A stretch of 37,105 nucleotides of DNA from a virus. The translations under genes were made by a program, and so were the position numbers. Position 1 is the stretch's first letter, and every line of letters starts with the position of its first letter. This document shows positions 1,267 to 25,522 of the stretch, piece after piece. The DNA is taken from the IMG/VR virus record IMGVR_UViG_3300042300_000723, positions 1 to 37,105 of that record; one strand, 5' to 3'. The notes below the pieces were generated by a model. The model was not told the origin of the DNA, did no database searches, and saw only the letters and a list, made by a program, of their open reading frames with translations.

Positions 1267-1500
1267 ATGTCCCGAAGTGATCCTAAGACCTGGGCCTACC
1301 GTGGCCGGGTGATCGAAGAGGACTTTGAGAGTTGGGCTGATCGGTCCAAGGAAATCTTTCTGAAGACACGGACGGGCTACATCATCCGTGCCCACAACTA
1401 CACGGATGCGAATGATGGGCCGTTTGTTCCTGGGAAATATCGCACGCTGGCGGAGGCGAAGCGAGGGGTGGATGAAGTTCTAACAGAAGGGGTGTGGTGA
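1267..1500 (+). CDS. Small unknown protein, 77 aa
   Basis: The ATG is preceded by AGGAGGT at a good distance, which fixes the start. The product is polar with many aromatic residues (TWAYRGRVIEEDF near the start, GPFVPGKYRTLAEAKRGVDEVL near the end). The last part reads like a short strand followed by a helix. There is no signal peptide or membrane segment. Its TGA overlaps the ATG of the next gene as TGATG, implying coupled translation. No family is recognised. Confidence 0.65.
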   Translation: MSRSDPKTWAYRGRVIEEDFESWADRSKEIFLKTRTGYIIRAHNYTDANDGPFVPGKYRTLAEAKRGVDEVLTEGVW

Positions 1501-1862
1501 TGACTGACATTGAAGTGATGCAGTGGTTCTTTGACTTGGAGAAGGTGGCTTCCGGATTCAACTGGCCGGTCAATGCGTCCGGCATGGCCGAATCCAAGCG
1601 CGGGCTTGACGCCGCAGTGCAGGCCAAGTCGCCTGCCGACGATGTCCTGGCTGCGTACAAGCGGTTCGCAGCGACCATCGGGCCAACGGCCATGAGCCTG
1701 CTGCTTCAGTCCGATGACGCCTTCCCGGAGGTCAACCACTCGGGCAAGCCGACGCCACCCAGCGATGGTGCCGTCACGTTGTATGTCGATCCTGACGGCA
1801 AGCGTGTGCTTGCCAAGTCTACCAATGTCTGGGGTGCCGCCCCGGAACTGTCTGTCTGCTAG
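1500..1862 (+). CDS. Unknown protein, 120 aa
   Basis: It starts at the ATG sharing a base with the TGA of the preceding gene; two in-frame GTG codons just upstream are possible alternatives. The protein is mostly helical in appearance in its first 70 residues (FFDLEKVASGFNW, DDVLAAYKRFAATIG). It then has a proline-rich turn and a short strand-like end (VTLYVDPDGKRVLAKS). No catalytic motif, signal or membrane segment is seen. Position suggests an accessory product of the ATPase operon. Confidence 0.6.
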   Translation: MTDIEVMQWFFDLEKVASGFNWPVNASGMAESKRGLDAAVQAKSPADDVLAAYKRFAATIGPTAMSLLLQSDDAFPEVNHSGKPTPPSDGAVTLYVDPDGKRVLAKSTNVWGAAPELSVC

Positions 1863-1871
1863 GAGTCTCTC

Positions 1872-1985
1872 ATGTACAGGGATGTACTAAGGCTGCTTCA
1901 CATCCTGGCAACTGCCATCCTCGTCCTGTTGGCGGGGAGGTTGCAGGATATCTGTTGGCATATACTACTGGAGGTTCGCAAGTGA
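1872..1985 (+). CDS. Possible 37-aa membrane microprotein
   Basis: A short frame begins at ATG 1872, a few bases after GGAGTCTC, and ends at TGA 1983-1985. The product has a short basic N-terminus (MYRDVLR) followed by a hydrophobic helix, LLHILATAILVLLAG, then a mixed tail. This is a plausible single-pass inner-membrane protein. Its stop overlaps a GTG start of another hydrophobic microprotein. Length is the main weakness; support is the ribosome site, the transmembrane pattern and the tight spacing. Confidence 0.45.
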   Translation: MYRDVLRLLHILATAILVLLAGRLQDICWHILLEVRK

Positions 1986-2056
1986 GTCCGGTCGCTGATT
2001 TCATGGTCGGTTGCGTCATCATCTTCTTCCTTGGCTGGTGGTCTAGCTCGCAATGA
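1982..2056 (+). CDS. Possible 24-aa membrane microprotein
   Basis: A GTG at 1982 lies seven bases after GGAGG (1970-1974) and overlaps the stop of the microprotein before it as GTGA. The 24 residues are dominated by the stretch FMVGCVIIFFLGWW, enough for one membrane pass. Its TGA overlaps the ATG of the serine recombinase as ATGA. The chain of start/stop overlaps argues that translation really passes through here, if only to couple the recombinase to upstream translation. Confidence 0.35.
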   Translation: MSPVADFMVGCVIIFFLGWWSSSQ

Positions 2057-2823
2057 TTCATCTATACGCTCGGGTATCTACGGACAAGCAGGAGAACGGC
2101 CGGGAGGCGCAGACCAAGCGGCTCCTGGACTGGGTTACTGACAAGGAGCATCGGCTGTGGGTGGACGAGGATGTCTCCGCCTACAACGTGCGACTCCACG
2201 CCCGGCCGTTCGGGAAGCAGATGTACGACGCCTTGCAGGCAGGCGACACGGTGGTCATCACCAAGATCGACCGTGCCTTCCGCCGGATGTATGACTTCGC
2301 CGTCACCCGCGAGCAGTGGGAGAAGCTCGGCGTCACCCTGGTCATCTTGGACCTGCCGTCCAATCTCTCGGGCCCGCACGGCAAGTTCTTCCTGTCCGTA
2401 GTGGTGGCAGCCGGCGAGCTGGAGTCCGACATGCACGGCCAGCGGAAGCGGGAGGTCTACGCCTACAAGCGCAACAGCGGCCTACCCTATGGTCCGCTTC
2501 GCCCCTATGGCTGGTCAGTGCGGAAGACCAAGGCTGGCCTGGAGTGGGAGCCTGACGAGCAGGAGCAGGCTGTCTGCCACCGTGCCCTGGCCATGCGAGA
2601 GGAAGGCAAGAGCCTATACCAGATTGCTATCGCCCTGATGGACGATGGCGTGCGGAAGCCGCGGAGGAAGAAGGGCTGTTCCGATTACTACCACGTAAAG
2701 GATGTTCACCTGATGGCCCGCGCGGCGAAAGCCGGATTTCCAAGGCTTCCGCGAGACGAGCTGCGAGGGCCCGGCTACGAACAGAGGCTAGCCGCAATGA
2801 AATCCGGTGGTCGGCCGCTATAG
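2053..2823 (+). CDS. Serine recombinase (resolvase/invertase family)
   Basis: The N-terminus YARVSTDKQ places the catalytic serine at residue 9 and the conserved Arg at 7. The KIDRAFRRMYDF segment (about 74-85) matches the TxxDRLxR region of resolvases, and residues 110-140 form the E-helix region. Residues 150-215 resemble the start of a recombinase domain (PYGWSVRK, EEGKSLYQIAIALMDDGVRKPRR), followed by a short basic tail. At 256 aa it is larger than Tn3 resolvases and much smaller than large serine integrases. It probably catalyses site-specific inversion, resolution or integration. Its last 197 bases are antisense to the end of the sigma-like gene. Confidence 0.88.
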   Translation: MIHLYARVSTDKQENGREAQTKRLLDWVTDKEHRLWVDEDVSAYNVRLHARPFGKQMYDALQAGDTVVITKIDRAFRRMYDFAVTREQWEKLGVTLVILDLPSNLSGPHGKFFLSVVVAAGELESDMHGQRKREVYAYKRNSGLPYGPLRPYGWSVRKTKAGLEWEPDEQEQAVCHRALAMREEGKSLYQIAIALMDDGVRKPRRKKGCSDYYHVKDVHLMARAAKAGFPRLPRDELRGPGYEQRLAAMKSGGRPL

Positions 2824-3241
2824 TCCGCAGCGTGTGGCCATTCTGGAAACGATCCGTGGCCAGGTCGGCGTCGGGGCCGAGGTCATCGATGGCCATCTGC
2901 AAATAGTCCGGCGACTCAATGACCGGGAGCAAATCGCTGGCTTCCTCCAGGCTGATCTTCCAGTCGGCGGGCTGGCGGTTCTGCTTGCGGATCCACTTGT
3001 ACATGGCGTTCATGCACGCCCGTGCGAAGTACGCCTTGGGGTACGGCAGCTTGGTCTTGTCGTACGTGCGGGCTGCCTTTGTCAGGGCCAGGAATCCCTC
3101 GGCCTCTAGGTCAGGCAGCAGCACAGACTTCTGCCAGCCTGGCCGGGCTTTCAGAAAGAACTTCGCCAGCATCCGAGCTAGCGGGATGTACTCAATGACG
3201 AGTGTCTGTCGATGCTTTGAGAGCCGCGATCTCTTTTTCAT
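2627..3241 (-). CDS. Sigma-70-like RNA polymerase sigma factor
   Basis: Residues 16-90 read as sigma region 2: a first helix IEYIPLARMLAKFF, then LPDLEAEGFLALTKAARTYD, then PKAYFARACMNAMYKWIRKQNR, matching the DLxQEGxxGLxxAxxxFD pattern. Residues 137-168 (HTLRTIAADHRIS...VRSRALAARLAE) look like the region 4 helix-turn-helix. It should direct RNA polymerase to phage promoters, possibly those of the virion block. ATG 3241 is chosen because it gives a basic N-terminus; it overlaps the upstream gene by 50 bases. The region 4 part lies opposite the last codons of the serine recombinase. It is the last gene of the leftward block. Confidence 0.75.
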   Translation of the reverse strand: MKKRSRLSKHRQTLVIEYIPLARMLAKFFLKARPGWQKSVLLPDLEAEGFLALTKAARTYDKTKLPYPKAYFARACMNAMYKWIRKQNRQPADWKISLEEASDLLPVIESPDYLQMAIDDLGPDADLATDRFQNGHTLRTIAADHRISLRLASVRSRALAARLAEALEIRLSPRGPSGEHPLRGSNRNSPSSSAASARHRPSGR

Positions 3242-3416
3242 GCTCGTCCAGTCTGTCCTCATGTTCCGCCAGTGCTTCGCGGAGTTCCTGCACCATCTCG
3301 GGCAGGCTCTCCACCGCATTGGCAATCACCGCCACCTTGGCGTGGATAGAGAACGCCCACGGTATCACCGCTGCTACGGCGCTCATCACCACCAGCCACA
3401 TCTCCACCTCAGACAT
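3192..3416 (-). CDS. Small membrane protein with coiled coil (holin/spanin-like?)
   Basis: The ATG at 3416 follows GGAGGA by seven bases. The 74-aa product has a hydrophobic segment at about residues 6-24 (MWLVVMSAVAAVIPWAF). A charged heptad-like helix follows at about 40-68 (LPEMVQELREALAEHEDRLDEHEKEIAALKA). One membrane anchor plus a coiled coil fits small phage lysis or superinfection proteins, but no family signature is visible. Its neighbours include other small membrane or exported proteins, consistent with a lysis cassette. Confidence 0.65.
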   Translation of the reverse strand: MSEVEMWLVVMSAVAAVIPWAFSIHAKVAVIANAVESLPEMVQELREALAEHEDRLDEHEKEIAALKASTDTRH

Positions 3417-3633
3417 CGCTGCTCCTCCGAATCATGGACACCAACATGAGCCCAGCGTAGGGATGCAACTGCCCCTCTTCGACATGCAGTTTGATCATCC
3501 GGACGGCTCGGTCTGATTCTTCGGGGGGAAACTGATAGATGTGCGTGTGTCCATCCAGTGTGGCGATGAGTCGATGAGTGCGTCGAACGCCTGACTCCGA
3601 ATGGCCTTCATGTCCTTCCGATCCAAAATCCAT
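3409..3633 (-). CDS. Unknown small protein, start uncertain
   Basis: The last 55 residues (DGHTHIYQFPPEESDRAVRMIKLH..., ending SMIRRSSDV) have good coding character, and the stop region supplies the ribosome site of the next gene. The start is unclear. ATG 3633 lacks a ribosome site and lies deep inside the preceding gene, which overlaps it by 139 bases in another frame. A non-ATG start nearer 3560 would reduce the overlap. No family or membrane segment is recognised. Confidence 0.4.
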   Translation of the reverse strand: MDFGSEGHEGHSESGVRRTHRLIATLDGHTHIYQFPPEESDRAVRMIKLHVEEGQLHPYAGLMLVSMIRRSSDV

Positions 3634-3875
3634 TTGGCGATCCAGTTGCTGACGAGCGAGATGAGGACAGGCAGGACGAAGATGATGAAGAAGCTGCCGC
3701 ATTCCGGGTTGGCCTTGAGGTAGGTTTCCTTAATGCGGCGGCGATACTCCCGCATAGAAACCGCCCCATCCGGCACCACCAGCAGGCCCACAAGTGCCAC
3801 CTCTCTGGCATGCCTACTGATTCCCCGGGCACCGGATTCGTACAGGCACTGATCGGCTACCTCGGTGGCAAGCAT
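3495..3875 (-). CDS. Membrane protein, 126 aa
   Basis: The product begins MLATEVADQCLYESGARG and contains one strong membrane segment near residues 62-85 (GSFFIIFVLPVLISLVSNWIAKWIL), followed by a short basic stretch. The ATG at 3875 overlaps the end of the upstream Cys-rich gene by 19 bases; a TTG at 3941 would extend the protein by 22 residues. It could be a holin or a single-pass accessory protein. No motif decides between these. It lies between a Cys-rich exported protein and other small genes near the end of the operon. Confidence 0.6.
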   Translation of the reverse strand: MLATEVADQCLYESGARGISRHAREVALVGLLVVPDGAVSMREYRRRIKETYLKANPECGSFFIIFVLPVLISLVSNWIAKWILDRKDMKAIRSQAFDALIDSSPHWMDTRTSISFPPKNQTEPSG

Positions 3876-4135
3876 TTCCCATCCACGCACTTGAGGACTG
3901 ACGGCGGGTGAACCACCGCCCCCTTGGTCTTGCACTTGCAATCAGGCGGGCAAGGGCAGGGGGTAGAGTGGCCGTCGCCGTGGACGATGCGGCCGTTCTT
4001 GCAGGCGCCGCAGCATTGCTTGCTCGGGCCCGGGAACTCCTGAGTATGCAGCACATACGCTGCTTCGACCGCCACCCTGGCTGTCATGTCAGCCGGCGAG
4101 AAGAACGACAGGATCCAGAGCAGGAGACTAGCCAT
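3857..4135 (-). CDS. Cys-rich exported protein, 92 aa
   Basis: It begins with a hydrophobic signal-like segment (MASLLLWILSFFSPA). A domain with nine cysteines follows, arranged CCxxC ... CPCPxxCxC ... CxxxxC. Paired cysteines after a signal peptide suggest disulfides in the periplasm or on the outside, or metal binding. Its ATG overlaps the stop of the papain-like protease gene by eight bases (ATGGCTAG), so the two are probably translated together. I do not recognise the family. A lipobox at the signal end is not evident. Confidence 0.65.
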   Translation of the reverse strand: MASLLLWILSFFSPADMTARVAVEAAYVLHTQEFPGPSKQCCGACKNGRIVHGDGHSTPCPCPPDCKCKTKGAVVHPPSVLKCVDGKCLPPR

Positions 4136-5093
4136 GGCGGAGCAGTCCTACGGTTCCGTAGTCAGGCAGTTTCTGCGGCGGGTAGCCGTCGATGGATCCG
4201 TATGCGTAGCAGTCCTCAGCCTCCACACACACGCTCCAGTCCTCTGCCTTAGTCACTATCATCCCTGGCACCCACGCAGGGAGATCCTTGGGCCATTCCT
4301 TCGGCCGCTGATTCCACTGCCCCCAACTGTTTACGATGAAGAACACATCGAACGGCCAGAAGGTCCGAGTAAAGTCCATCCCGACCGTCGCCATTGCGTG
4401 ATTCCAGCCAGGACTAACGCGCTGGTGGATGTGGTCCTTGTTGGGCGATGGCGACCACGCGGCGTACTGGCCGGACATGAGAGCGTAGCCGTTGAACAGT
4501 GCGTCAACAGCATCTGAGATCGTCCTGATCTGCCTAATGATGCCGACCTTGTTAGCCTGGCACAGGTCAAGGACATCTTTAGGCACACCGCCGGCCCGGC
4601 CCCAGCTCGCGCCGATTGCGCCCCTGTACGACGAAAGATCGACTGACGGGTATTTCTGTCGAATCAAGAACCCGTTCTTGTTTTCAAACATCGCAGCCCT
4701 TGCTGGCGACATGCCTGCCCCAGCATGACCCCTGGCCCCGTACGTTGGCTCGGTGGCTCCGCGGTCCATAAAGGATTCCGCCTCGCGTTTCACCAGGATC
4801 TCAACGGCACGGCTTGTGTCTCTTGCGTTCCGGCTTGCATGGGACGTACAGTCCGGCTCGTCCTGCTTCTCTGTGTACGCGCCTGCGTCAAGCGCTCTCA
4901 GGTATGCCCACAGTGCAGCGCGCTGCCCCTTGCCGGAGCCTGCGATATTCGGCTCGGAATAAACAGGCTGCCGCTGCGACTCCGAGAACAGCCCACGCTC
5001 GCGCGGGCTGTTGATGTAGCCCACCATGCCGAGGTTCTGGTAGGCGTTAAGCAACGAGTACGGCGTGTCTAGCTCGCTGTTATCATCCGACAT
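4128..5093 (-). CDS. Papain-like cysteine protease (C1 fold)
   Basis: The four papain catalytic elements occur in order: Gln77 (oxyanion hole), Cys82 in DCTSHAS, His232 in WNHAMATVG, and Asn255 within the diagnostic NSWG. The spacing Q77-C82 is one residue shorter than in papain. About 320 residues fit a C1 catalytic domain with a short N-terminal extension and no long propeptide. No signal peptide is visible, so the enzyme would start in the cytoplasm. Possible jobs are virion protein processing, cleavage of host envelope protein at lysis, or attack on a host factor. It overlaps both neighbours by about ten bases. Confidence 0.82.
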   Translation of the reverse strand: MSDDNSELDTPYSLLNAYQNLGMVGYINSPRERGLFSESQRQPVYSEPNIAGSGKGQRAALWAYLRALDAGAYTEKQDEPDCTSHASRNARDTSRAVEILVKREAESFMDRGATEPTYGARGHAGAGMSPARAAMFENKNGFLIRQKYPSVDLSSYRGAIGASWGRAGGVPKDVLDLCQANKVGIIRQIRTISDAVDALFNGYALMSGQYAAWSPSPNKDHIHQRVSPGWNHAMATVGMDFTRTFWPFDVFFIVNSWGQWNQRPKEWPKDLPAWVPGMIVTKAEDWSVCVEAEDCYAYGSIDGYPPQKLPDYGTVGLLRHG

Positions 5094-5757
5094 GTTCTGC
5101 GCTCACAATGCGTCCAACATCTTGCGGCACTGACAGGTAGTAGATCGCCCTGGCTAGGATGCCGGCGCTGTCCTTGGCCTCTCCAAGGAGGCGGTTGCAG
5201 CCACGGCACAAGACACCCCTCACTGCCCCAGTGCTGTGGCAGTGGTCGATGTGCTTATTGCTCAGGTCTGTGAACGGCTCTTCGCAGATGTCGCACGCCT
5301 CCCTAGCACACATCCGCCGTGCGGTATCCAGCGGCAGCCTGTAAACGGAAGCCCGCGTCCTTGCGCTTGTGCATGGCCGGCACTCAGACCGCAGGCCACC
5401 CTTTCGCTTTGGATCCAGGCAGAACTCACTGGCCGGCTTTGTGATTCCGCAGTCACGGCAAGTCTTCTCGTCAAGCGTTACCGGATATCGTACCGATTCC
5501 TTGCGCGCTGAATGACATTCCTTGCATTCTTTCTGCAATCCAGTCGAATTGCTCTTCGACTTCCAAAATGCGTCCGCCGGCAGCGTTCGCTTGCATGAAC
5601 CGCAAGTCTTCTCATGCACAGGAGCTGGCCTCTGCTTTGCTCTCTGTGCGATGTTTCTGCACTCCTTGCAGGTTGGCTGAAGTGCGCCCCTCACTGGACT
5701 GAAGGCACTGAACAGTTTCCATTGCCGGCACTTATTGCACTGCTTGCGGTCACTCAC
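5083..5757 (-). CDS. Endonuclease VII-type Holliday junction resolvase with three zinc ribbons
   Basis: The C-terminal 75 residues match recombination endonuclease VII: C155xxC158, the HIDHCH core (169-174), GxVRGxLCxxCN (177-188) and a downstream G. The T4 relative cleaves branched DNA before packaging. Before this lie three tandem CxxC...CxxC units of similar layout, at C7/C10/C30/C33, C52/C55/C78/C81 and C100/C103/C126/C129. Each is a probable zinc ribbon for DNA or protein binding. GTG 5757 is chosen because GGAGG lies six bases upstream and the start overlaps the stop of the previous gene; an upstream ATG would bury the ribosome site. Confidence 0.87.
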   Translation of the reverse strand: MSDRKQCNKCRQWKLFSAFSPVRGALQPTCKECRNIAQRAKQRPAPVHEKTCGSCKRTLPADAFWKSKSNSTGLQKECKECHSARKESVRYPVTLDEKTCRDCGITKPASEFCLDPKRKGGLRSECRPCTSARTRASVYRLPLDTARRMCAREACDICEEPFTDLSNKHIDHCHSTGAVRGVLCRGCNRLLGEAKDSAGILARAIYYLSVPQDVGRIVSAEHVG

Positions 5758-6148
5758 ACTGCGCCTCCACGGCCCGCATGCCAGCCACAATCTTCTGTGC
5801 CAGCGCATCGTCTATGGCCACGTTCTCCAGCGGGTAGTGCTTGGCCAGCGTTTCCTCCACGGCCTTCGCCAGGTCGGGGTACTTGCCGACAAAGTCAGTC
5901 CCACCCACGGCCAGCCGCAGAGCGTCTTGGTAGATCGCTCGCCATGCTGCGGTGGTGGTGATCAGCCGGCCTGAGTCCCTGGCCATCACATCACCGAGCG
6001 CTCGGTAGATGGCGTTCACCTTGGCCCGGTCGGTGGAGGGAGCCGACGATAGGGCTGTAGCTACGGGACCAGTTGCGGCTGGCCGTGGGGAACCAACGAA
6101 ACTGGCGACCACCAACACGGCCGCCAATGCGAGAGGGAGGTACTTCAT
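5750..6148 (-). CDS. Exported protein, 132 aa
   Basis: A classical signal peptide is seen: MKYLPLALAAVLVVASFVGS with a likely cleavage site soon after. The mature part is helical and polar (about 45-125), with no cysteines until the penultimate CE. ATG 6148 overlaps the stop of the upstream gene as ATGA, and an SD-like GAGGGAGG lies just before it. The family is not recognised. Its place among small membrane proteins and two proteases suggests an envelope role. Confidence 0.65.
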   Translation of the reverse strand: MKYLPLALAAVLVVASFVGSPRPAATGPVATALSSAPSTDRAKVNAIYRALGDVMARDSGRLITTTAAWRAIYQDALRLAVGGTDFVGKYPDLAKAVEETLAKHYPLENVAIDDALAQKIVAGMRAVEAQCE

Positions 6149-6360
6149 TTGAGCAGGGCCTGGAGAAGGGCGTTGCAGGCGGTCTTCACTTCAGACGCGG
6201 ACGAGGATTCCCGGATGCGGATCACAGCCTCCAGGTGCTGGAGCGTGGCGTCCTTCCTCCGCAGGATTGGCAGAGACAGGGCAGGGAGCTTGGGGATGAC
6301 GAACTGCCACACCAGTGCAGCCCCGAGGGTGGCGACGGCGAGGATCTGAAACTTGGTCAC
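6145..6360 (-). CDS. Small membrane-anchored protein, 71 aa
   Basis: The start is GTG 6360, which overlaps the stop of the protease gene as GTGA. Residues 5-22 (FQILAVATLGAALVWQFV) form one membrane segment, followed by a Pro/Leu-rich linker. A soluble helix makes up the rest (ATLQHLEAVIRIRESSSASEVKTACNAL, split here by the family's usual short loop). It may be a small spanin- or holin-like protein, but nothing confirms that. Translation is coupled on both sides. Confidence 0.6.
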   Translation of the reverse strand: MTKFQILAVATLGAALVWQFVIPKLPALSLPILRRKDATLQHLEAVIRIRESSSASEVKTACNALLQALLK

Positions 6361-7298
6361 AGGATTCGGGCTCCGGGAATGAACAGGGTGACGCCGGCCT
6401 GCGAGGAACGGACCTCGTAGTTCAGCAGCTTGTGCGGATCGACCAGGCCCCAGCCGTACACATGGTCACGCCCGGGCTCACCTGAGTCGCGGCAAGTCTC
6501 CGAGAGCGCCTTGGTCACGGCCGCATGGTCAACCTTCCGGCCGTCCTTCTTCTGCGCCGACACGTACAGAGACAGCACGCCAGCCACAAACGGCGCGGCC
6601 ATGCTGGTGCCGCTGACCGTGGCGTATCCCTCACCAAGCCAGGTGCTGGTGATGTCCTGCCCTGGGGCAGCGACGGCAATCTCCTTGCCCCTGGAAGAGA
6701 ACTCGCAGGCGTTGCCGTTCCTGTCCACGGCACCCACCGCAATGGTTTCCTGGAAGGCAGCAGGGAAGTTCACTGCCCCACCGTCATTGCCAGCCGCGCA
6801 CACCACAATCACGCCCGCGGCCTGGGCCTTCTTCACTGCCTCATGCACGCGGCTGTCGGGCTTGCTGGACCCGAGCGACATGCAGACGATGTCGGCCTTG
6901 GCCTCGGTCGCATGCAGCACGGCCGTGGCCACCGCCTCGTTGCTGCCCATGCCCGAGTGGCCGAGGACTTTGAGGGACAGGATCTTGACCTCGGGTGCGA
7001 TGCCCTTGGCCAGGCCGGTCTTAGCACCGATCACGCCTGCGACATGCGTACCATGCCCGAGGGTGTCGTAGACATCGGAGTCCGAGGAGAAGTTGCGGTA
7101 GTCAACCACAACGTCCTTCAGCGCCGAGTGCGGCGACACCCCGGTGTCGATCACCGCCACCGTCACGCCTTCCCCCTTGGAGGTCATCCACAGGGAGGGT
7201 ATCCCATAGGAACTCACACCCCAGTCAACTCCCTCCTGGGCCGAGTGCGGCACATGGAGGAAGTCAACGCGGTATGGGGGCAGATGGACGAAGCTCAT
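6357..7298 (-). CDS. Subtilisin-like serine protease (S8 family)
   Basis: The complete catalytic triad is present: Asp51 in VAVIDTGV, His82 in GHGTHVAG, and Ser232 in SGTSMAAPFVAG. The oxyanion Asn171 lies in CAAGND. At 313 aa it covers just the catalytic domain; no signal peptide and no inhibitor-type propeptide are visible, resembling intracellular subtilisins. It should therefore be active in the cytoplasm or reach the envelope through lysis. The ATG overlaps the preceding stop as ATGA. With the papain-like enzyme downstream, this operon codes for two unrelated proteases. Confidence 0.92.
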   Translation of the reverse strand: MSFVHLPPYRVDFLHVPHSAQEGVDWGVSSYGIPSLWMTSKGEGVTVAVIDTGVSPHSALKDVVVDYRNFSSDSDVYDTLGHGTHVAGVIGAKTGLAKGIAPEVKILSLKVLGHSGMGSNEAVATAVLHATEAKADIVCMSLGSSKPDSRVHEAVKKAQAAGVIVVCAAGNDGGAVNFPAAFQETIAVGAVDRNGNACEFSSRGKEIAVAAPGQDITSTWLGEGYATVSGTSMAAPFVAGVLSLYVSAQKKDGRKVDHAAVTKALSETCRDSGEPGRDHVYGWGLVDPHKLLNYEVRSSQAGVTLFIPGARIL

Positions 7299-7645
7299 TC
7301 TCTCTTGCCGACCGCCTGGAGAATGGCAATGAGGATCGGCACCAGCACCTCAACGATGGTCTTCCAGTCGATCCCCAGAGCAGCCACCTCGGCGCCGGCG
7401 CTGAACACGCGGGCGTCATAGGAGGCAGGGGTATCCACCACCAGATCGTCCTCGCCGTCCCAGCCAAAGAACTTCGGCTGCACAGCCTCGGCTTCCAGGA
7501 TGGGGAGGACCACCTGGGCAATCTCGTTGACCACCGCCCACTGAGTCAGGTACGGGGAGGTGCGGTCGAACTTCTTGGCGATCTCCACCACCTTGAGGAG
7601 AGCTTCACGGTGCTTCAGCAGCCACTGAACGATCTTCAGATTCAT
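7295..7645 (-). CDS. Unknown protein with hydrophobic C-terminus, 116 aa
   Basis: ATG 7645 is chosen because GAGGAAC lies just upstream. The N-terminal 30 residues form an amphipathic, basic helix (LKIVQWLLKHREALLKVVEIAKKF). The C-terminus ends in a short hydrophobic helix (TIVEVLVPILIAILQAVGKRE) that could insert in the membrane or pack in an oligomer. The family is not recognised. It sits directly upstream of, and overlaps, the subtilisin gene, so a partner or chaperone role is possible but unproven. Confidence 0.6.
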   Translation of the reverse strand: MNLKIVQWLLKHREALLKVVEIAKKFDRTSPYLTQWAVVNEIAQVVLPILEAEAVQPKFFGWDGEDDLVVDTPASYDARVFSAGAEVAALGIDWKTIVEVLVPILIAILQAVGKRE

Positions 7646-7985
7646 GTTGTTCCTCATAATCCAAACAGGCAATGGCCACCACGGCGTGGCCGGCAATGTC
7701 AGCAAGTGTCTTCCTTATATCTATTGTCCGCAAAGGACCGCGGAGGCGGCGGCACTTTTCCCCGATCCTGGCGGCCTGGTATTTCCAGGGCTCAATCCCG
7801 TCCGCTTGCACCCCGAGTGCGTTTTCCAGCGGGTTTGACTGGCATCCGTAGTACCCCCGCTTCCTGGTAAGCAGGGCATGGAGGGCGTTGCAAATCTCCA
7901 GGTAGGGGTCACCATTCAACCGACCGGGAGGAGTGCTGGATCCTGCCGTACTCGGACCAGAATGTGGCATGGTGGTAGGGGTCAT
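7605..7985 (-). CDS. Unknown phage protein with C-terminal DIAGHAV motif
   Basis: From about residue 24 onward the coding character is strong: DPYLEICNALHALLTRKRGYYG, then a Lys/Arg-rich stretch, then RKTLADIAGHAVVAIACLDYEE. The ending resembles phage proteins that finish in a D-x-x-D-I/L-A-G-Y/H-A helix (DUF1599/DUF6378-like), an identification made from memory. ATG 7985 has GAGGAGGA upstream but overlaps the previous gene by 77 bases; a TTG at 7919 is a shorter alternative. Confidence 0.55.
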   Translation of the reverse strand: MTPTTMPHSGPSTAGSSTPPGRLNGDPYLEICNALHALLTRKRGYYGCQSNPLENALGVQADGIEPWKYQAARIGEKCRRLRGPLRTIDIRKTLADIAGHAVVAIACLDYEEQHESEDRSVAAEAP

Positions 7986-8253
7986 CGCTGTTGTCCTCCT
8001 CGTCGTTGAGCCAGACCACCCGGGCGTGCGACCACTCCTCGCACAGGGTGTCCAGCAATACGTAATGGTCTAGGTCACTCCGAACCGCTATCGTCCCTCG
8101 CTCCAGATCGTCATCCATGGTGAAGTAGCCCAGCTCACTCTTCATCTGCCTCGGGTTGCGCAGGTAGATCCGCACCGGGAACTGGAGCGGCCACCGCTCC
8201 TGGGCCCAACGCTTCCACTTGGCCACCAATTTCCTGCGCCAGTCTTGGGGCAT
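7909..8253 (-). CDS. Degenerate metallopeptidase-like protein, 114 aa
   Basis: The layout is that of small phage proteins with a zinc peptidase core: an N-terminal basic helix, strands (FPVRIYLR, GTIAVRSD), then LLDTLCEEWSHARVVW and a second HH-containing helix. The expected HExxH is altered: Glu72 stands where the first metal-binding His would be, giving EEWSH, while His76 and His94/95 remain. If the relationship is right, the enzyme is inactive or binds metal differently. ATG 8253 has CTGGAG seven bases upstream. Confidence 0.55.
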   Translation of the reverse strand: MPQDWRRKLVAKWKRWAQERWPLQFPVRIYLRNPRQMKSELGYFTMDDDLERGTIAVRSDLDHYVLLDTLCEEWSHARVVWLNDEEDNSDDPYHHATFWSEYGRIQHSSRSVEW

Positions 8254-8536
8254 CGTCAAGCTCCAGAATCAGTAGCCACTTGCGGTTATTGCGTTTGTGC
8301 AGCACCACCGGCAGCCGGTCCCCAGCATCACGCCTGGCCTGGTCCAGCCAGTCATAGGGGTTGCCACGCTCGGTTCGCTTCACCTCAACATGAATGCCCT
8401 CATGGGAGGTGACGATGTCCGGCGACTCCTTGGAGCCCGAGAACTGCTGGCCGCGCCGGGCCGAGCCGCCGAGGACGCGAGCCCATTCCTTGGCAGCCTC
8501 TCGCTCGCCGCGGGCACCCTTCTGGCGAGAGTTCAC
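8135..8536 (-). CDS. PD-(D/E)XK nuclease, RecU/VRR-like resolvase
   Basis: The short nuclease core is visible: Glu11 in the first helix (GARGEREAAKEW), Asp40 in SPDIV, then Glu51-x-Lys53 in HVEVKRTE. The spacing fits small Holliday-junction resolvase-like nucleases. A conserved-looking WLDQAR helix and LPVVLHKRNNRKWLLIL strand follow. The last 38 residues are Ala/Pro-rich and overlap the next gene by 119 bases. GTG 8536 overlaps the stop of the upstream gene as GTGA and has GAGG eight bases before it; a GTG at 8545 is the alternative. Confidence 0.75.
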   Translation of the reverse strand: MNSRQKGARGEREAAKEWARVLGGSARRGQQFSGSKESPDIVTSHEGIHVEVKRTERGNPYDWLDQARRDAGDRLPVVLHKRNNRKWLLILELDDAPRLAQEIGGQVEALGPGAVAAPVPGADLPAQPEADEE

Positions 8537-17189: not shown

Positions 17190-17276
17190 TTGCCCGAAGC
17201 TCTGAAAAGGGCGATTTTCCTGGGACTTGAAAACCTTGAATAGATGGGTAGAACGTCCCCCAGAAGAGGGCACCCC

Positions 17277-18104
17277 ATGACGCTGCTGCAACTTGCCAGG
17301 ATCTACCACAACCGCGTAGGAGGCTCCCCCGGCTACCTGGAACAACTGGAGGTGTTCGTCCGCCGCCTTGACTGGCAGGCGAGCGACCTCAACCCAGAGA
17401 GGATTGATTCCTACCTGACTGATGCCCTGAAGCATCTGGCTCCCTCCACCGTCAGAAATCACAGGAAAATGCTGCGGGTTCTGCTGCATTTCGCCGCCTC
17501 CGAGCGACTTGTGGACGCCAGTATACTCAGGCCCCTCCGGAGAGTCAAGCAGCTCCCCCCCAACCCGAGGGCGTGGAGCCATGAGGAAATCCGTTCGCTT
17601 CTGGCGGTAGCTGCGAACATGACCGGGGGACGCAAATGCCCGCGCAACAAGCTGGCGAGGGCGTGGATCCTGACGGCCTACTCCACCGGCCTGCGTCTGG
17701 ATGACTTGCTGTCGATCAGGCATGACCAAATCCGTGGCCAACGTATCTGCCCCAGCCAGCACAAGGTGGGATGGCCCCATGTGTGCTGGCTGGATGACAA
17801 CGCCCTGGCAGCCTTACGACAACTGCCGATCCTTGGGCCGCGTATCTTTGGCGACTTGATCTGCCGAGACAAGGCCATGGCCATGATGCGGCACCTGACC
17901 CGTGTCGCCGGGCTGCCTGGCAGCACTAAGTTTCTGCGGCGATCCGGGGCGACCTACTGCGAGATCGCCGGGAAAGACGCCACTGGACACTTAGGACATA
18001 GAAGCCCTGGCATGAAGGCTTACTACGTGGACAGGCTGCTGGTGGCCGAGGAGAAGCGGCAGGAACCTACGGCTCCACCGCTAGAACTTTCCAGCACCAA
18101 TTGA
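17277..18104 (+). CDS. int: Tyrosine recombinase / phage integrase
   Basis: The 275-aa protein has a SAM-like N-terminal core-binding domain (1-90) and a catalytic domain. The latter shows Arg140 in STGLRLDDL, Lys163, KxxR (Lys218/Arg221 in TKFLRRSGATY, with Lys in the usual His place), His241 in LGHRSPG and the nucleophile at Tyr249 or Tyr250. It should catalyse integration at an attP/attB pair. ATG 17277 follows AGAGGG; an in-frame ATG at 17244 lacks a ribosome site. It faces the opposite way to both flanking blocks and ends 24 bases inside the convergent virion gene. Confidence 0.9.
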   Translation: MTLLQLARIYHNRVGGSPGYLEQLEVFVRRLDWQASDLNPERIDSYLTDALKHLAPSTVRNHRKMLRVLLHFAASERLVDASILRPLRRVKQLPPNPRAWSHEEIRSLLAVAANMTGGRKCPRNKLARAWILTAYSTGLRLDDLLSIRHDQIRGQRICPSQHKVGWPHVCWLDDNALAALRQLPILGPRIFGDLICRDKAMAMMRHLTRVAGLPGSTKFLRRSGATYCEIAGKDATGHLGHRSPGMKAYYVDRLLVAEEKRQEPTAPPLELSSTN

Positions 18105-18527
18105 CGGCGTGGGGGTCTTCCGGTCCATGAGGAGCCCCCACAGGATCCCATCCGCCGCTGCCTTCTGCTCGGGCGTGTACGGTCCAGCCGATGGGTCACC
18201 AGACAGAATGCGGGCGACGATGGTGTGGCGGGCCATTTGCGGCTGCTGCCCGTAGGCCGTCTTGGAGAAGAACTGCTGCTGGCCTGGCGTGATGGGGAAT
18301 CCGTGGATGGTGCCCTTGTCCATCATGTGCAGGCGGGCGGATTCGTTCAGGGCCACCGAATCCTTTTCCGCAGGCGAGAGCTGCGAGTAAGGGTTCAGCA
18401 CCACCTTCTGGTCCGGGGCTGCATACCCAGCGACCGCGGGATTCTTGGCGAAGAATGCCTCCTCGCCCCAGTACGGATCGCGCTGTCCATACTTAGACCG
18501 CAGCAGATCGGCGCGGTAATCACCCAC
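18081..18527 (-). CDS. Conserved phage virion-block protein, 148 aa
   Basis: It contains the run PDQKVVLNPYSQLSPAEKD, then ALNESARLHM, then TPGQQQFFSKTAYG, and RHTIVARILSGDPSAGPYTPEQ. This combination occurs, from memory, in unnamed proteins encoded among internal virion genes of several phages. A peptidase-like or structural role is unproven. It starts at GTG 18527 within the stop of the preceding large gene. It is the last gene of the virion block and converges on the integrase. Confidence 0.65.
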   Translation of the reverse strand: MGDYRADLLRSKYGQRDPYWGEEAFFAKNPAVAGYAAPDQKVVLNPYSQLSPAEKDSVALNESARLHMMDKGTIHGFPITPGQQQFFSKTAYGQQPQMARHTIVARILSGDPSAGPYTPEQKAAADGILWGLLMDRKTPTPSIGAGKF

Positions 18528-21500
18528 CGTTGAGAGCCCCTAGCATCTCTAGCGGATCTGCGGCCATCTTCTTCTTCTGCCGTGCCCGCTTTGCCGCTTC
18601 GCTTTGGATGATCTTGTACAAGAGGTACAAGTCCTTCTGCTCCTTCGGCATGGCCCGCAGCACATCCTCTGGGACCGTGATGTTCTCATAGGTCCGGACG
18701 CCGGGCGTTGTCTCCAGGATGCTGTTGAGCATGTCCCGAGCGGCTTGCCGCTTGGCCCGATCCTGGTCAATGTCGGTGAGCTTGGCACCGGCCAGGAGGT
18801 TCCATGCTGCCTTGGTGTACTTGTCTGCCGGGGCTAGGCGGTCATCGGTGAACTGTCGGTACATGCCGAGGGCACGGGTGCCGAACGGCACAAAGTTGGT
18901 GACCACCTGCTCTAGCGGTCGGCCGATCTCACCGAAGTCCCGCTCTAGGACTGAGTACAGGTCTGTGAGATCCCGGCCGGAATAGAGCTGCCGGTTGGTG
19001 AAATACTCAATCGGGGCTTTGATGATCGGGCTGGTCATGCCCAGCAGATTGGAGCCGGTCTGGCGGATGGTGTCGGCAATCCGGGACGAGGTGGTGGCAC
19101 CCACGCCGGGCGTGACGGTGTTGAAGAACGCCTCCCATGGAGCGTCGATGCTCGTCAGGAACCGTTGCAGGTTGGGATTGCCAGAGCCCCACTCGGGCGG
19201 AAGCGGAATGGCAGCCGACCGCCGCAGATGCTCGGGGATGAAGTTGTCTTCGCTCGGCTCCGTGCCGCGGGTGACCGCACGGATCGACTGCCCCATCAGA
19301 CCGCCGGGGCGATAGAGCGTGTTGTTGACGATGCTCGGGACAATGCCCTTCTGGAAACTATAGAAGGGCAGCGCCCGCTTCAGGACGTTGCGCTCAAAGG
19401 ATGTGAAAGCCTGGGGCGAATAGTCCACCTGGCTGAGACGCACCAAGTCGGCCGCCTCTCCAGGATCCACGCCCTTCCGCAACTGGTTGAGGAACACGCC
19501 GCCCCGCAGGGCATCTTCCGACACCGATCCAACGGCATCGTTCAGTACCAGGAACGGATTGCGATTCCGGGTCGGCGCCCGGTCGGTGATGCCGACGCCA
19601 CGCAGGCTGAAGAAATCGTTGGCAAAGTCTCCCCAGGAGCGGTTTGGATTTAAGAACGCCCGCCCAACGCTCTGGTCATTGCCAGCCCCAAGCCAGCCGC
19701 CGCGGATCTGCTGCTCGGGCAGGCCGCTGATATCGTCCAGGATGTTGCCGCCACCGATGCGATTGGCCGCAGTCAGGTCTTGGAATCGGGCTACACGTTG
19801 CGCGGGATTGAGTCCCTGGAATCCCGGGGCATTCTCCAGCCGGCGGGCCAGCGCGTCGGTGTTGCCCATGGAGGCCCGGAGAGCGGCGTACCAGTCACCA
19901 GGATTGAAGGCCCCGAACGTGCCGGCATTGAGCATGCCCGAATAGGTGTTGCGGGTGTGGAACGCTGGGCTGGCGAGGGCACCCACCTTAAAGGCATTGG
20001 TGAACCCATCCAGCAGGCCAACCATTCCACGCTCGGCATCGCCCGCCCGCGAAGAGTTGACCACCGTCAGCATCTGCTCCACCAGCCGCTCGGGCACGGC
20101 GAGGTTGGTGATGTCGGCGCCGAACCGCCGCTGCCAAACTTGCCGCAGGTTGTCTGGATCGAATCCGAGGCGACGAGCGGCATCGGTGAGTTGCACCATG
20201 CCATCCGCCAGCCCGTTGGACCCAATCACAGCGGTGGCCTCTTCCAGCCGCGGGATCAGCCGCTCGGCGTTCGCTATCACGCGGCTCTGGCCACGCTCAT
20301 AGCGAGACAGGTTTGTCCAGCCTGGGGTGTCGAAGATGCCCGTCCCGGTCTGGGCAAACTGCTGGTCCGAGCCGCGCAGCAAGTTGACGAGTTTGTCCTG
20401 CCGTTGCTGGAGCGACCGCACGGCCTCGGCCATCATCTGCTGCTGGGCCGGTGGGGCGGCGTTTTGGTACGCAGCAGACGCCTGGAGGTTAGAGATATCC
20501 TCCCGAAACGGACGGGCGATCCCGAGTTGATCGAAGGCATCGTCCAGCAGGTCGCGGGCCGGGATCTGGTCAGCGGCAATCAGGCGCCGCTGGAGATCGG
20601 CCGCATCGAACGGCAGGCCGGTTGGTGTCCCCGGTGCAGACTGGAGCGCCCGGCCACCCGTCAGCAGGCGGAAGGTTCGCTGCCCGCCCGGGATGTCGGT
20701 GTACTCCTGTCGGCTGCGACCGAAGTTGTCGGCCGTATCCATCAGCGTCTGACTGCGTCCCCACGGCTTCTCCACACGCCCCGTGGCATTGGGACGCACG
20801 GGATCCATGAGTCGCTCAAACCACTTCAACTGCCGCGGGAAGAAGCCCGTGCCAGATGCCCCACGCCAATCCCTGTCGGGGAGGCCAGAGGCGACGGCGT
20901 TTTGCCTGGCCTGCTGCACGGCATCCATGTACGTGTCCCGCATGCCGCGGAACTCGGGCACGTTCTCCAGCACCCAGTCGGCCACGGCATCGCCGCTGCT
21001 TTTGGGCATAGGCCCGTACGCGCCAGCGGCAGATGGGACAGCGGACGATTCGACATAATCCACCAACGCACGCTGAACGTCGGTGCTGTTGAACCGCCGC
21101 AGCGAGTCGGGGATCGCAGCGGGGACATTGGCAGCCCCAGCGGCACGCATGCCAGCCGCCACATCCTCGGCGTCCACACCAAGCGCTTCGCGGAGCTGCC
21201 GCTGACGAAGTAGTTCTCTCGCCTCATCCGCCCGGGAGGCGTTCATCTTGGAAATGCGGGAATCCCACTGGAGGTCGGGATTTAGCGTGCCGCCTGACGG
21301 GCCGTGGAATCCGGCGTACAGCGCATTGACAACAGGGGCGGTGTACGGGTTTCGCTTAGAGGCTTCGCCCAAGGCATCTAAGCCTTCGGCCAATCGGTTG
21401 CCAAACCGCTCGCCAAAGACATCGGTGCTGACTCCGATGTTGGTGCCGGGGATCCTGACATCCATGAGCCTGGCGGCGCTGCCTGTCAGATCGTTTGGAT

Positions 21501-22176
21501 CGACGCCATATCGCCGAGCCTGCTGTTGCCAGCGAGCAAGCGCCTCAGCCCGCGCGGTTGGGTCCGCGATCTCGGCCAACGCCTGCTCTGGCGTGATGGA
21601 CCGCATGTAGCTGCGCACGCCGCGGCCTGCCGGTCGCCCTGCACCGGCCGCTGTCCCGGCCCATGCCTGCTCTGCCGCGTTTCGCAGAAGTCCCGTCGCC
21701 TTCATCGCCTTGCCAGTCTGCGTCAATGCGCCGCGGCCAAGGATGGACAGAGGGTTGGCCCAGGTGAATGGATCCAGAAGCACCTCGGCGGCGAGCGATC
21801 CGGCGAAGTTGCCCCACGTATCCTTGTTGCCAATCATGCCGTACTGCCGCAGCAGCTCACGGCCGGTGACGCGCTCCTCAGAATCCCCAAGAAACGACAG
21901 CGGCTTACCCGCCAGCAAGCCACGCACTAAAGCCCCAGGAGTGTCGAACAACCACCCGGCAGTGGCTAGGCCAGAAGACCCAACCTGTGCCAGGGAGTTG
22001 AGCAGGCCGCTCTTCTCTTCCTGCGGCATGAGGTCGGCAATCGTCGCTCGCTGACGCCCAAGAGGAGCGATGCCAAGTATATCCGTGTCCTCGTCGGGAG
22101 GCAGAAGGCCCATCGCAGCCTGCTGCTTGAGGAGATCGTACGGATCATAGATGTCAAAAAGCGGCGACTGTGCCAT
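18520..22176 (-). CDS. Large internal virion (ejection) protein, 1218 aa
   Basis: This is the largest gene in the window. Helical and Gln/Arg/Ala-rich stretches dominate. A conserved-looking stretch near residues 915-955 (VDYSPQAFTSFERNVLKRAL, then PFYSFQKGIVPSIVNN) recalls the 'tyr-x-phe' part shared by big podovirus internal proteins and polyvalent proteins. Such proteins are packed in the capsid and injected with DNA. No lytic transglycosylase motif was found. The ATG overlaps the previous stop as TAATG. Its position after a series of Ala/Gln-rich genes supports the assignment. Confidence 0.7.
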   Translation of the reverse strand: MAQSPLFDIYDPYDLLKQQAAMGLLPPDEDTDILGIAPLGRQRATIADLMPQEEKSGLLNSLAQVGSSGLATAGWLFDTPGALVRGLLAGKPLSFLGDSEERVTGRELLRQYGMIGNKDTWGNFAGSLAAEVLLDPFTWANPLSILGRGALTQTGKAMKATGLLRNAAEQAWAGTAAGAGRPAGRGVRSYMRSITPEQALAEIADPTARAEALARWQQQARRYGVDPNDLTGSAARLMDVRIPGTNIGVSTDVFGERFGNRLAEGLDALGEASKRNPYTAPVVNALYAGFHGPSGGTLNPDLQWDSRISKMNASRADEARELLRQRQLREALGVDAEDVAAGMRAAGAANVPAAIPDSLRRFNSTDVQRALVDYVESSAVPSAAGAYGPMPKSSGDAVADWVLENVPEFRGMRDTYMDAVQQARQNAVASGLPDRDWRGASGTGFFPRQLKWFERLMDPVRPNATGRVEKPWGRSQTLMDTADNFGRSRQEYTDIPGGQRTFRLLTGGRALQSAPGTPTGLPFDAADLQRRLIAADQIPARDLLDDAFDQLGIARPFREDISNLQASAAYQNAAPPAQQQMMAEAVRSLQQRQDKLVNLLRGSDQQFAQTGTGIFDTPGWTNLSRYERGQSRVIANAERLIPRLEEATAVIGSNGLADGMVQLTDAARRLGFDPDNLRQVWQRRFGADITNLAVPERLVEQMLTVVNSSRAGDAERGMVGLLDGFTNAFKVGALASPAFHTRNTYSGMLNAGTFGAFNPGDWYAALRASMGNTDALARRLENAPGFQGLNPAQRVARFQDLTAANRIGGGNILDDISGLPEQQIRGGWLGAGNDQSVGRAFLNPNRSWGDFANDFFSLRGVGITDRAPTRNRNPFLVLNDAVGSVSEDALRGGVFLNQLRKGVDPGEAADLVRLSQVDYSPQAFTSFERNVLKRALPFYSFQKGIVPSIVNNTLYRPGGLMGQSIRAVTRGTEPSEDNFIPEHLRRSAAIPLPPEWGSGNPNLQRFLTSIDAPWEAFFNTVTPGVGATTSSRIADTIRQTGSNLLGMTSPIIKAPIEYFTNRQLYSGRDLTDLYSVLERDFGEIGRPLEQVVTNFVPFGTRALGMYRQFTDDRLAPADKYTKAAWNLLAGAKLTDIDQDRAKRQAARDMLNSILETTPGVRTYENITVPEDVLRAMPKEQKDLYLLYKIIQSEAAKRARQKKKMAADPLEMLGALNGG

Positions 22177-23645
22177 TAAGAATCCATCGGAACGTACTTC
22201 GGCCTGCCGGGGCGTGCAGGAGGCGGAGTTCCAGGATTAGCTCCTGCGGCAGGAGCGGCGGGCTTCACGGTAACGGGACGCGGGCGCGCTGGTTCAGAAG
22301 TCTGATTGAACCACCATCGCTCGCGGTTCGCGGACGCCCACGCGGCCGCCTCGGCCTCGGCAGGCTTCATGTTATACGGCGGTTCCTGGAGACGCCTTGC
22401 GAGACGCTGCTCGCTTTCATAACTAAACCCACCCCAGTCATTGTCCATGGAGTCGCGGAGGCGGTCTATTTCGCCAATCCCCTGCTCGCTGTCCCATCTG
22501 CCGTCAGCAATGTCCTTGACGCCAGCGGCCGAGGGGTTGGTCTGCCGCAATTGAGTGTCAGCCTGCTGCGCCGCCAGGGCGGCCTGCTCGGGCGTGACCT
22601 GCTGGAAGCCGCGACCCTGCGCAACGCGCAGCCCCAGGTCCGTGAGTTGCTGATTGTGCATGGCCTCAACACCAAGCGGCGTGGGCCCGAAGTTGAGCGG
22701 GCCACCAGGCCGGTTGGCATTCAACGCTGCGTTCTGCTGATTCAGGATGGCAGACTGCATGGCCGGATCCAGGCCGGGCAGCGCCAGCGCCCCAGCGTAG
22801 TTTCCGGCACGCATCATTACCGTGGCGCGCCACTGGAGTTCACGGGCCTGCTTGTCCGCCTGTCGCTGGTTAGCGGCGGCAAGACGCAAGTCGTTGTCAG
22901 ACATCTTCGGCCCGGTGCCGTCTTCGTTCTTTTCCGTGGCAACGTCCTGGCTCAAGCCAGCCTCACGCGCCCACCGAGGACGGCTGACGTTCTGGGTGTA
23001 GCGCGCGTCGGCCGCGTTCCTCTCCGCAATCTCCTGATCGGTTGGCTTGTGAACCGGGATGACATCCGTGCCAACCCCTCGCCCCTGCTCGCGAGCCGCA
23101 AGCCACTTGGCGCCGGTGCCAGGCCCATACTTCTGCTCCAGCATTGCGGCGTGCGCCTTGTCACTCTCTGCCTGCTTTGCCGCCTCGCGCGCCGCAAACT
23201 CCTGCGGGCGATACCGCTGCATCTCGTCGGGGTTGTCTTCCAGGAACTGATTCCAGCGCGCCTGTTGTTCAGGAGTTCCTGGATCGACGGGCGTCTGAGG
23301 GTGCAGGCCAGAGCGAATGATGCGGCCTGCCTCACGGGCATGGGCCTCGCTGCTGTCCCACTGCTCCTGCAACTGCGGCGAGGCTGGCCCAAGGCCGGCG
23401 GGATCGCTTCCTGGACGCTCCAGCCCCGGTCGCTGCGGTGCAGCAGAGCGAATTTCCGGCTCCATGGCAATCGGCGTGGCCGAGGCTTCCAGGTCGGCAG
23501 CGACGTTGGCTGGCTCGCTGGACCATCCCGGAAGAGCGCCGCGGCGTGCCAGTTCCTGCTTGGCGGCTTCGGACAGGCCAGTGCCATCGTCGTTGTTCAG
23601 GTAGCCCAGAAGCTCGTCGTTGCTCTTGTTCGCCAGCCAACTCAT
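22176..23645 (-). CDS. Putative internal virion protein, 489 aa
   Basis: ATG 23645 follows GAGG. The protein opens with SWLANKSNDELLGYLNNDDGTGLSEAAKQELARRGALPG. It is rich in Ala, Gln and Arg (for example NQQLTDLGLRVAQGRGFQQV, TPEQAALAAQQADTQLRQTN) and ends in a Pro-rich tail. There is no signal, membrane segment or catalytic motif. Coupled starts with both neighbours and its composition suggest a capsid-internal protein. Confidence 0.65.
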   Translation of the reverse strand: MSWLANKSNDELLGYLNNDDGTGLSEAAKQELARRGALPGWSSEPANVAADLEASATPIAMEPEIRSAAPQRPGLERPGSDPAGLGPASPQLQEQWDSSEAHAREAGRIIRSGLHPQTPVDPGTPEQQARWNQFLEDNPDEMQRYRPQEFAAREAAKQAESDKAHAAMLEQKYGPGTGAKWLAAREQGRGVGTDVIPVHKPTDQEIAERNAADARYTQNVSRPRWAREAGLSQDVATEKNEDGTGPKMSDNDLRLAAANQRQADKQARELQWRATVMMRAGNYAGALALPGLDPAMQSAILNQQNAALNANRPGGPLNFGPTPLGVEAMHNQQLTDLGLRVAQGRGFQQVTPEQAALAAQQADTQLRQTNPSAAGVKDIADGRWDSEQGIGEIDRLRDSMDNDWGGFSYESEQRLARRLQEPPYNMKPAEAEAAAWASANRERWWFNQTSEPARPRPVTVKPAAPAAGANPGTPPPARPGRPKYVPMDS

Positions 23646-23652
23646 TCCAACC

Positions 23653-25272: not shown

Positions 25273-25522
25273 TCTTCTTCGCCTTCTTCTTGGGCAGGTC
25301 CGCCAGCTCACCGTCGCCGGGGAGATCGTCTTCGGCGACCTCGGGAGTGTTCGGCTTGCCGTGCATCTCCTCGTCCAGGTCAGCCAGGTCGTTCTTCTCA
25401 GCCCGCTTCTGGAGCTTGTCCAGGATCTTCTTCTCGTCACCGTCCTTGGCGACCAGGAGTTGCTTCACCATGCGCTCCAGAGCCGAGCGGTTGAGGTCAC
25501 GGATGTCGAAGTCCATCTTCAT
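25265..25522 (-). CDS. Small charged virion-block protein, 85 aa
   Basis: It starts at ATG 25522 overlapping the previous stop as TAATG. The N-terminal 45 residues form a charged helix (SALERMVKQLLVAKDGDEKK, ILDKLQKRAEKNDLADLDEE); the C-terminus is acidic and then Lys-rich. It could be a scaffolding or chaperone-type virion-assembly protein. No motif is recognised. Confidence 0.6.
   Translation of the reverse strand: MKMDFDIRDLNRSALERMVKQLLVAKDGDEKKILDKLQKRAEKNDLADLDEEMHGKPNTPEVAEDDLPGDGELADLPKKKAKKNG

Follow-up and report, generated by a model that had tools for sequence, protein, structure and literature searches.

The stretch of viral DNA analyzed here, termed the window (37,105 nucleotides; positions 1 to 37,105 of IMG/VR record IMGVR_UViG_3300042300_000723), carries on its minus strand a cassette of small genes arranged around k, a gene for a papain-like cysteine peptidase. 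We propose, with somewhat more belief than doubt, that this cassette is a phage lysis (exit) module and that its lysin is the C1-fold cysteine peptidase k. The evidence that makes us lean towards this reading consists of missing peptidoglycan hydrolases, a position before the terminase gene, a nearby holin-like gene, a recurring trio of genes, preserved catalytic residues, inteins, fold matches and the existence of known papain-fold lysins. As judged from sequence, the papain-centred block points to an undescribed route of host exit. The true extent of the cassette is approximately 3192-7705, and adjacent open reading frames (ORFs) within it overlap by a few bases, which fits a single operon. 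A sequence-only reading of the same DNA had described two proteases with complete catalytic sets 1.3 kb apart. This was borne out: the papain-like gene and the subtilase gene (g) lie 1.26 kb apart, both on the minus strand, and the catalytic residues of both are conserved.

Conservation of the cassette was examined at increasing distance from the window. The order f, subtilase, h, i, papain, l, m, n, sigma factor gene was kept in 11 of the 11 other genomes compared; h was undetected by tblastn in three of these, and an endonuclease gene was variable. A papain profile scan of IMG/VR yielded 197 relatives, 80 of which were retained, and about 60 of the retained records belong to the clade of the window and carry the cassette, with l, m or n divergent or undetected in some. 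The possibility raised earlier, that homologues of the cassette genes never occur together, is thus contradicted by their co-occurrence in these approximately 60 close relatives. More remote papain relatives (36-50% identity) lack the subtilase, but in most of them i and l are still found with the papain. Matches to the i profile were found in nearly all distant papain loci, and the l profile matched in distant loci too. In a separate scan, ribonucleotide reductases (RNR) related to the papain neighbour in locus L121 were used as query, and most of the 80 RNR-linked loci obtained have papain, l and i nearby. The papain-i-l trio is common to phages that differ widely in size and base composition, and in remote phages it is often accompanied by a thioredoxin. 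Because i, papain and l recur in remote phages without the subtilase, the conserved core is i, k and l, and the subtilase is clade-specific. On these sequence comparisons the papain cassette is the system, and the presence of two proteases is a feature of the clade. The protease lysis system suggested by the sequence-only reading is therefore supported in part: no endolysin was found and the cassette is conserved, but its core is the papain with i and l, and the subtilase belongs to one clade only.

The k gene (4128..5093, minus strand) encodes 321 amino acids with no export signal. Gln77, Cys82 and His232 were invariant and Asn255 nearly so among 29 homologues, down to approximately 36% identity, and these residues follow the Gln-Cys-His-Asn order of the papain family (C1). 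The Pfam cut-off was not reached by k; the best match was PF00112 (E = 0.0026, in 5 of 10 members). A search of PDB sequences with the papain profile returned chance matches only and was uninformative, so structure comparison was needed. The AlphaFold2 model of k (predicted local distance difference test, pLDDT, 87.5) matched xylellain (E 1.3e-8) and cathepsins in Foldseek, with E-values of 1e-8 to 1e-6 and a probability of 1.00. Among its fold matches in BFVD are phage proteins that bear the labels N-acetylmuramidase and peptidoglycan-binding-like. In tblastn searches, neither four divergent papain members nor the terminase matched any of 50,697 phage records, and the annotation of isolated phages could consequently not be used. 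Inteins of about 400 residues with LAGLIDADG motifs are inserted directly before Cys82 in four papain genes (L070, L101, L113 and L123, the last from G003), and the subtilase of L064 carries a LAGLIDADG intein directly after His82-Gly83. Inteins tend towards conserved active-site DNA, and their insertion at these sites supports the view that the active sites of papain and subtilase are functional. By hydropathy, an N-terminal hydrophobic segment is present in 7 of 13 chromosomal planctomycete papains and in none of the viral papains tested; the papain of the window clade has no N-terminal signal anchor of the signal-arrest-release (SAR) type. As a separate observation, the cassette proteins neighbouring the papain are approximately 90-100% identical between genome G002 and the window, and the papain itself is only 56% identical (window 4128-5093 vs. 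L004:5060-6010). We read this sequence divergence as an allele swap beside a homing-type endonuclease gene.

The sequence-only reading had found no recognizable peptidoglycan hydrolase, and this holds for the window and for the longer record of a relative. That record, G001 (57,870 bases, IMG/VR), matches the window with 99.95% identity at its positions 14090-51194, and its additional 20.8 kb contain the terminase, two capsid genes, more genes for the head and a group of small genes. A Pfam scan of 85 ORFs of G001 identified SSB, ERF, helicase, resolvase, integrase, P22-like portal, terminase and other proteins, and no murein hydrolase was among the matches listed (25 of 27 families). Phage lysozyme, Amidase_2, M23, M15_3, SLT and NlpC/P60 were detected in none of 29 viral records that carry the papain (G001 and 28 others, 49-185 kb); control genomes were positive. 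The endolysin that might have lain in the missing part of the genome was therefore not seen at this sensitivity, either in G001, which covers that part, or among the six families in the 29 records. The known murein hydrolase by which a holin-endolysin cassette is recognized was likewise not found. RNR-linked relatives without a nearby papain (L190, L205, L209, L215 and L216) displayed no clean swap to a known endolysin. In another such locus, L202, an exported trypsin-thioredoxin fusion lies beside an ORF that is NlpC-like by eye (707-1321 and 1335-3215); from its sequence, we take this to be another pairing of a protease with a thioredoxin.

Six of 11 papain-bearing genome contigs come from Pirellulales-type planctomycete metagenome-assembled genomes (MAGs). 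Papain homologues were found in 13 of 392 Planctomycetota and 1 of 395 Bacteroidota genomes, where each count includes its seed genome, and several planctomycete matches sit in very long contigs, one of them 6.43 Mb. On these sequence data, the lake phage probably infects planctomycete bacteria. SAR202, Synechococcaceae, Flavobacteriales and Lokiarchaeota were also considered as hosts, and these were set aside as likely misbinned contigs because the Planctomycetota matches repeat and lie in long contigs. In two Planctomycetota prophages the cassette is placed immediately upstream of the terminase gene, a position it does not have in the window clade. The order in G386 is an f-like gene, an h-like gene, i, papain, a transmembrane protein, an exported thioredoxin and another exported protein, followed by terminase and portal; the arrangement in G168 is similar. 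Among the Pfam matches listed for the 32 ORFs of the G386 prophage (25 of 28 families) were terminase, portal, capsid, tail tube and thioredoxin, and no murein hydrolase. The scan of the second prophage region (25 of 49 families listed) was not used as evidence for hydrolase absence. The planctomycete wall was long regarded as proteinaceous, a view summarized in PMC4432640, and the same study describes planctomycete murein sacculi that are sensitive to lysozyme. The earlier suggestion of a host with a protein-rich envelope thus gains from the planctomycete assignment, but murein sacculi are present, and since these are lysozyme-sensitive, murein peptides are no less probable a target than protein. 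No paper on lysis genes of planctomycete phages was found in the literature library searched.

The core partner i (5750..6148, minus strand, 132 amino acids) is a small all-helical protein with an N-terminal hydrophobic segment, exported or anchored. Its AlphaFold2 model (pLDDT 88.3) has six helices, and no related fold was retrieved by Foldseek against PDB. The second core partner, l (3857..4135, minus strand, 92 amino acids), is Cys-rich, with the pattern CxxC...GxIxHGDGH...CPxxC and a probable export signal. Its Cys, Gly and Asp columns are invariant, and in L139 and L149 it is fused to a thioredoxin. The export call for l rests on its own N-terminus and on lipobox-like starts in some distant homologues. 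The remaining small proteins, all on the minus strand and conserved in position, are f (7295..7705, ORF of 136 amino acids with a C-terminal hydrophobic segment), h (6145..6360, 71 amino acids), m (3495..3941, ORF of 148 amino acids) and n (3192..3416, 74 amino acids, an N-terminal transmembrane segment followed by a coiled coil); the true starts of f and m are probably internal. By hydropathy f, h, i, m and n contain one hydrophobic segment each, h and m thus being single-transmembrane proteins, and l is under the cut-off used. For n, weak matches below cut-off to coiled-coil families including XhlA were seen. All six of the small membrane or exported proteins reported earlier exist, but only h and i fall within the coordinates given there (4128-7298). 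Of 88 distant or RNR-linked loci, 33 have a gene for a holin-like protein with two hydrophobic segments upstream of the papain, mostly within approximately 30 bases.

The subtilase g (6357..7298, minus strand, 313 amino acids, no signal peptide) matches PF00082 at E = 1.7e-53, and its triad, Asp51, His82 and Ser232, is invariant in nine sequences. Its best PDB matches are the intracellular subtilisins 7y6m and 7xr8. An invariant N-terminal HLPPYRV aligns with RLIPYEV of 7y6m, the LIPY motif of intracellular subtilisins, whose inhibitory role here is putative. Identity to the subtilases of isolated phages (Moorella, Bacillus and others) does not exceed 44%.

We hypothesize that the operon would be expressed late in infection, and that one or more of the small membrane proteins (f, h, m and n, or the holin-like protein in many marine relatives) would open or depolarize the inner membrane. 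Peptidase k might then leave the cytoplasm in the manner of canonical endolysins; as the window-clade papain has no signal, it would need a membrane lesion for exit. The anchored chromosomal planctomycete papains would resemble secreted or SAR-type lysins. Outside the membrane, k may cut murein peptide bonds or a structural envelope protein. Proteins i and l would act together with k, keeping its catalytic Cys reduced in the oxidizing periplasm, reducing disulfides of the target, or both, since the pairing of an exported thiol or zinc protein with a cysteine protease suggests that the catalytic Cys, or disulfides in the target, are under redox control. The subtilase may be an accessory zymogen of the intracellular-subtilisin type, confined to this clade; this accessory, zymogen-like role is a guess. 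A more specific version is that phages of planctomycetes and a large group of marine phages lyse their hosts with a C1 cysteine protease and an exported Cys-rich or thioredoxin partner, breaking a disulfide-containing envelope protein without cutting any glycan or cross-link. We offer this version tentatively and consider it doubtful.

Several observations weigh against the lysis reading. Neither f, h, m and n nor the marine two-segment proteins matched a holin in PHROG or Pfam, and no known spanin family was matched by the small membrane proteins. The near clade and about half of the marine loci lack the holin-like gene, and the near-clade papain carries no export signal. The assignment of the host rests on MAGs and prophages, not on infection. 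Absence of the six hydrolase families was counted in papain-bearing records only, and large uncharacterized virion proteins may hold remote or new hydrolase folds. In another explanation, the phage would depend on an unrecognized murein hydrolase encoded outside the cassette, perhaps within the large virion proteins at 18520-25440, and the cassette would have an unrelated function. A large share of the proteome is without a family match, which leaves room for such an enzyme; however, the six families are absent from 29 records that include phages of 116-185 kb, and no candidate beside a holin was found outside the cassette. We judge this explanation to be highly improbable.

Three other roles for the proteases were weighed. 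The papain, and perhaps the subtilase, could be entry enzymes in or on the virion that degrade host surface protein at adsorption or DNA entry. This agrees with the older view of a proteinaceous wall (PMC4432640) and with L120 and L125, where the cassette adjoins a structural-looking gene. In the window clade, however, the head and tail genes are distant from the cassette, no fusions with tail domains or with receptor-binding domains were observed, the partners are membrane or exported proteins and not virion proteins, and a membrane anchor is present at the N-terminus of some chromosomal papains, so that we hold entry to be unlikely. Prohead proteases are common in tailed phages, and the window-clade proteases are cytoplasmic and signal-less, as expected if they processed capsid or internal virion proteins. 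Yet a long distance separates their genes from the two major capsid genes, outside any head module in which a prohead protease would be placed, their co-conserved partners are exported, and the cassette is common to phages with differing capsid and portal families. Virion maturation, which the sequence-only reading had named as its other option, is accordingly not favoured and appears very unlikely. Cleavage of host regulatory, defence or receptor proteins in host takeover, counter-defence or superinfection exclusion would suit the intracellular type of the subtilase, with its putative inhibitory motif at the N-terminus, and the sigma factor gene in the same operon. The exported small partners and the pre-terminase position fit an envelope role better, and the missing peptidoglycan hydrolases would be left unexplained; we see little likelihood in this alternative.

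The endonuclease VII/HNH-like gene j (5083..5808, minus strand, PF02945 at 3.2e-17) lies between i and k and was rejected as a cassette member, as it is missing at this spot in most relatives. Directly downstream of the cassette, o (2627..3325, minus strand) encodes a sigma-70 region 2-like protein (PF04542, 6.3e-6) that is kept in all near relatives compared. A sigma-factor-like gene near the cassette was observed both in the freshwater clade (window 2627-3325) and in the marine relatives, where the genes were recognized by eye (L139:5914-6381 and L124:3878-4432). A conserved small protein at window 7909-8259 contains EEWxH ... HHxxFW, which recalls a metallopeptidase motif whose first His has been exchanged, and has no family match. 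The same phage carries a serine resolvase and a tyrosine integrase-like gene (window 2053-2823 and 17244-18104). The two major capsid genes of G001 (222-1328 and 56686-57798; L019 and L021) match the same PHROG. Adjoining the capsid genes is an 836-residue Cys-rich, beta-repeat protein (L019:3368-5878), whose composition we presume to resemble that of planctomycete surface proteins.

Papain-fold cysteine peptidases are already known as lysins; what differs here is the sequence, the single-domain build and the two exported partners. Mycobacteriophage Lysin A contains N5 (papain/C39-like) and N4 cysteine-peptidase domains, and the L5 lysin, in which the N4 cysteine-peptidase domain is the sole known catalytic domain, lyses cells (PMC3314691). 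PeiW and PeiP are, as cited in PMC12596118, pseudomurein endoisopeptidases of methanogen viruses. All of these are papain-fold cysteine peptidases that open the cell wall, a function that is only proposed for k. No sequence relation was found between k and Lysin A N4/N5 or PeiW/PeiP, and unlike these modular enzymes with cell-wall-binding domains, k is single-domain, has the classical Gln-Cys-His-Asn order and is accompanied by the exported partners i and l. The fold and catalytic residues of k are those of peptidase family C1A (papain, cathepsins, xylellain), but its sequence is under the Pfam cut-off, no propeptide was recognized and the setting is a phage cassette. The closest solved relatives of g are intracellular subtilisins (7y6m, 7xr8, 2wv7), with which it shares the absence of a signal peptide and an LPPY that aligns with LIPY; unlike these, g belongs to a phage and shares its operon with genes for membrane proteins. 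Like S-R-Rz of lambda, the cassette lies before the terminase in planctomycete prophages and combines small membrane proteins with one enzyme. In contrast to the lambda cassette, the enzyme is a protease and no holin or spanin family was recognized.

Publications on the exit of planctomycete phages seem few. If the proposal is true, the papain-i-l trio, which is widespread, has no family name at present and occurs in a few hundred contigs of uncultivated phages from fresh and marine waters, would constitute a new class of lysis module, and annotators could locate lysis genes in many phages that now seemingly have none. If the target is a protein and murein is left uncut, this would be a new kind of lysis system. 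A true lysis role would also provide a direct test of what holds the planctomycete cell together.

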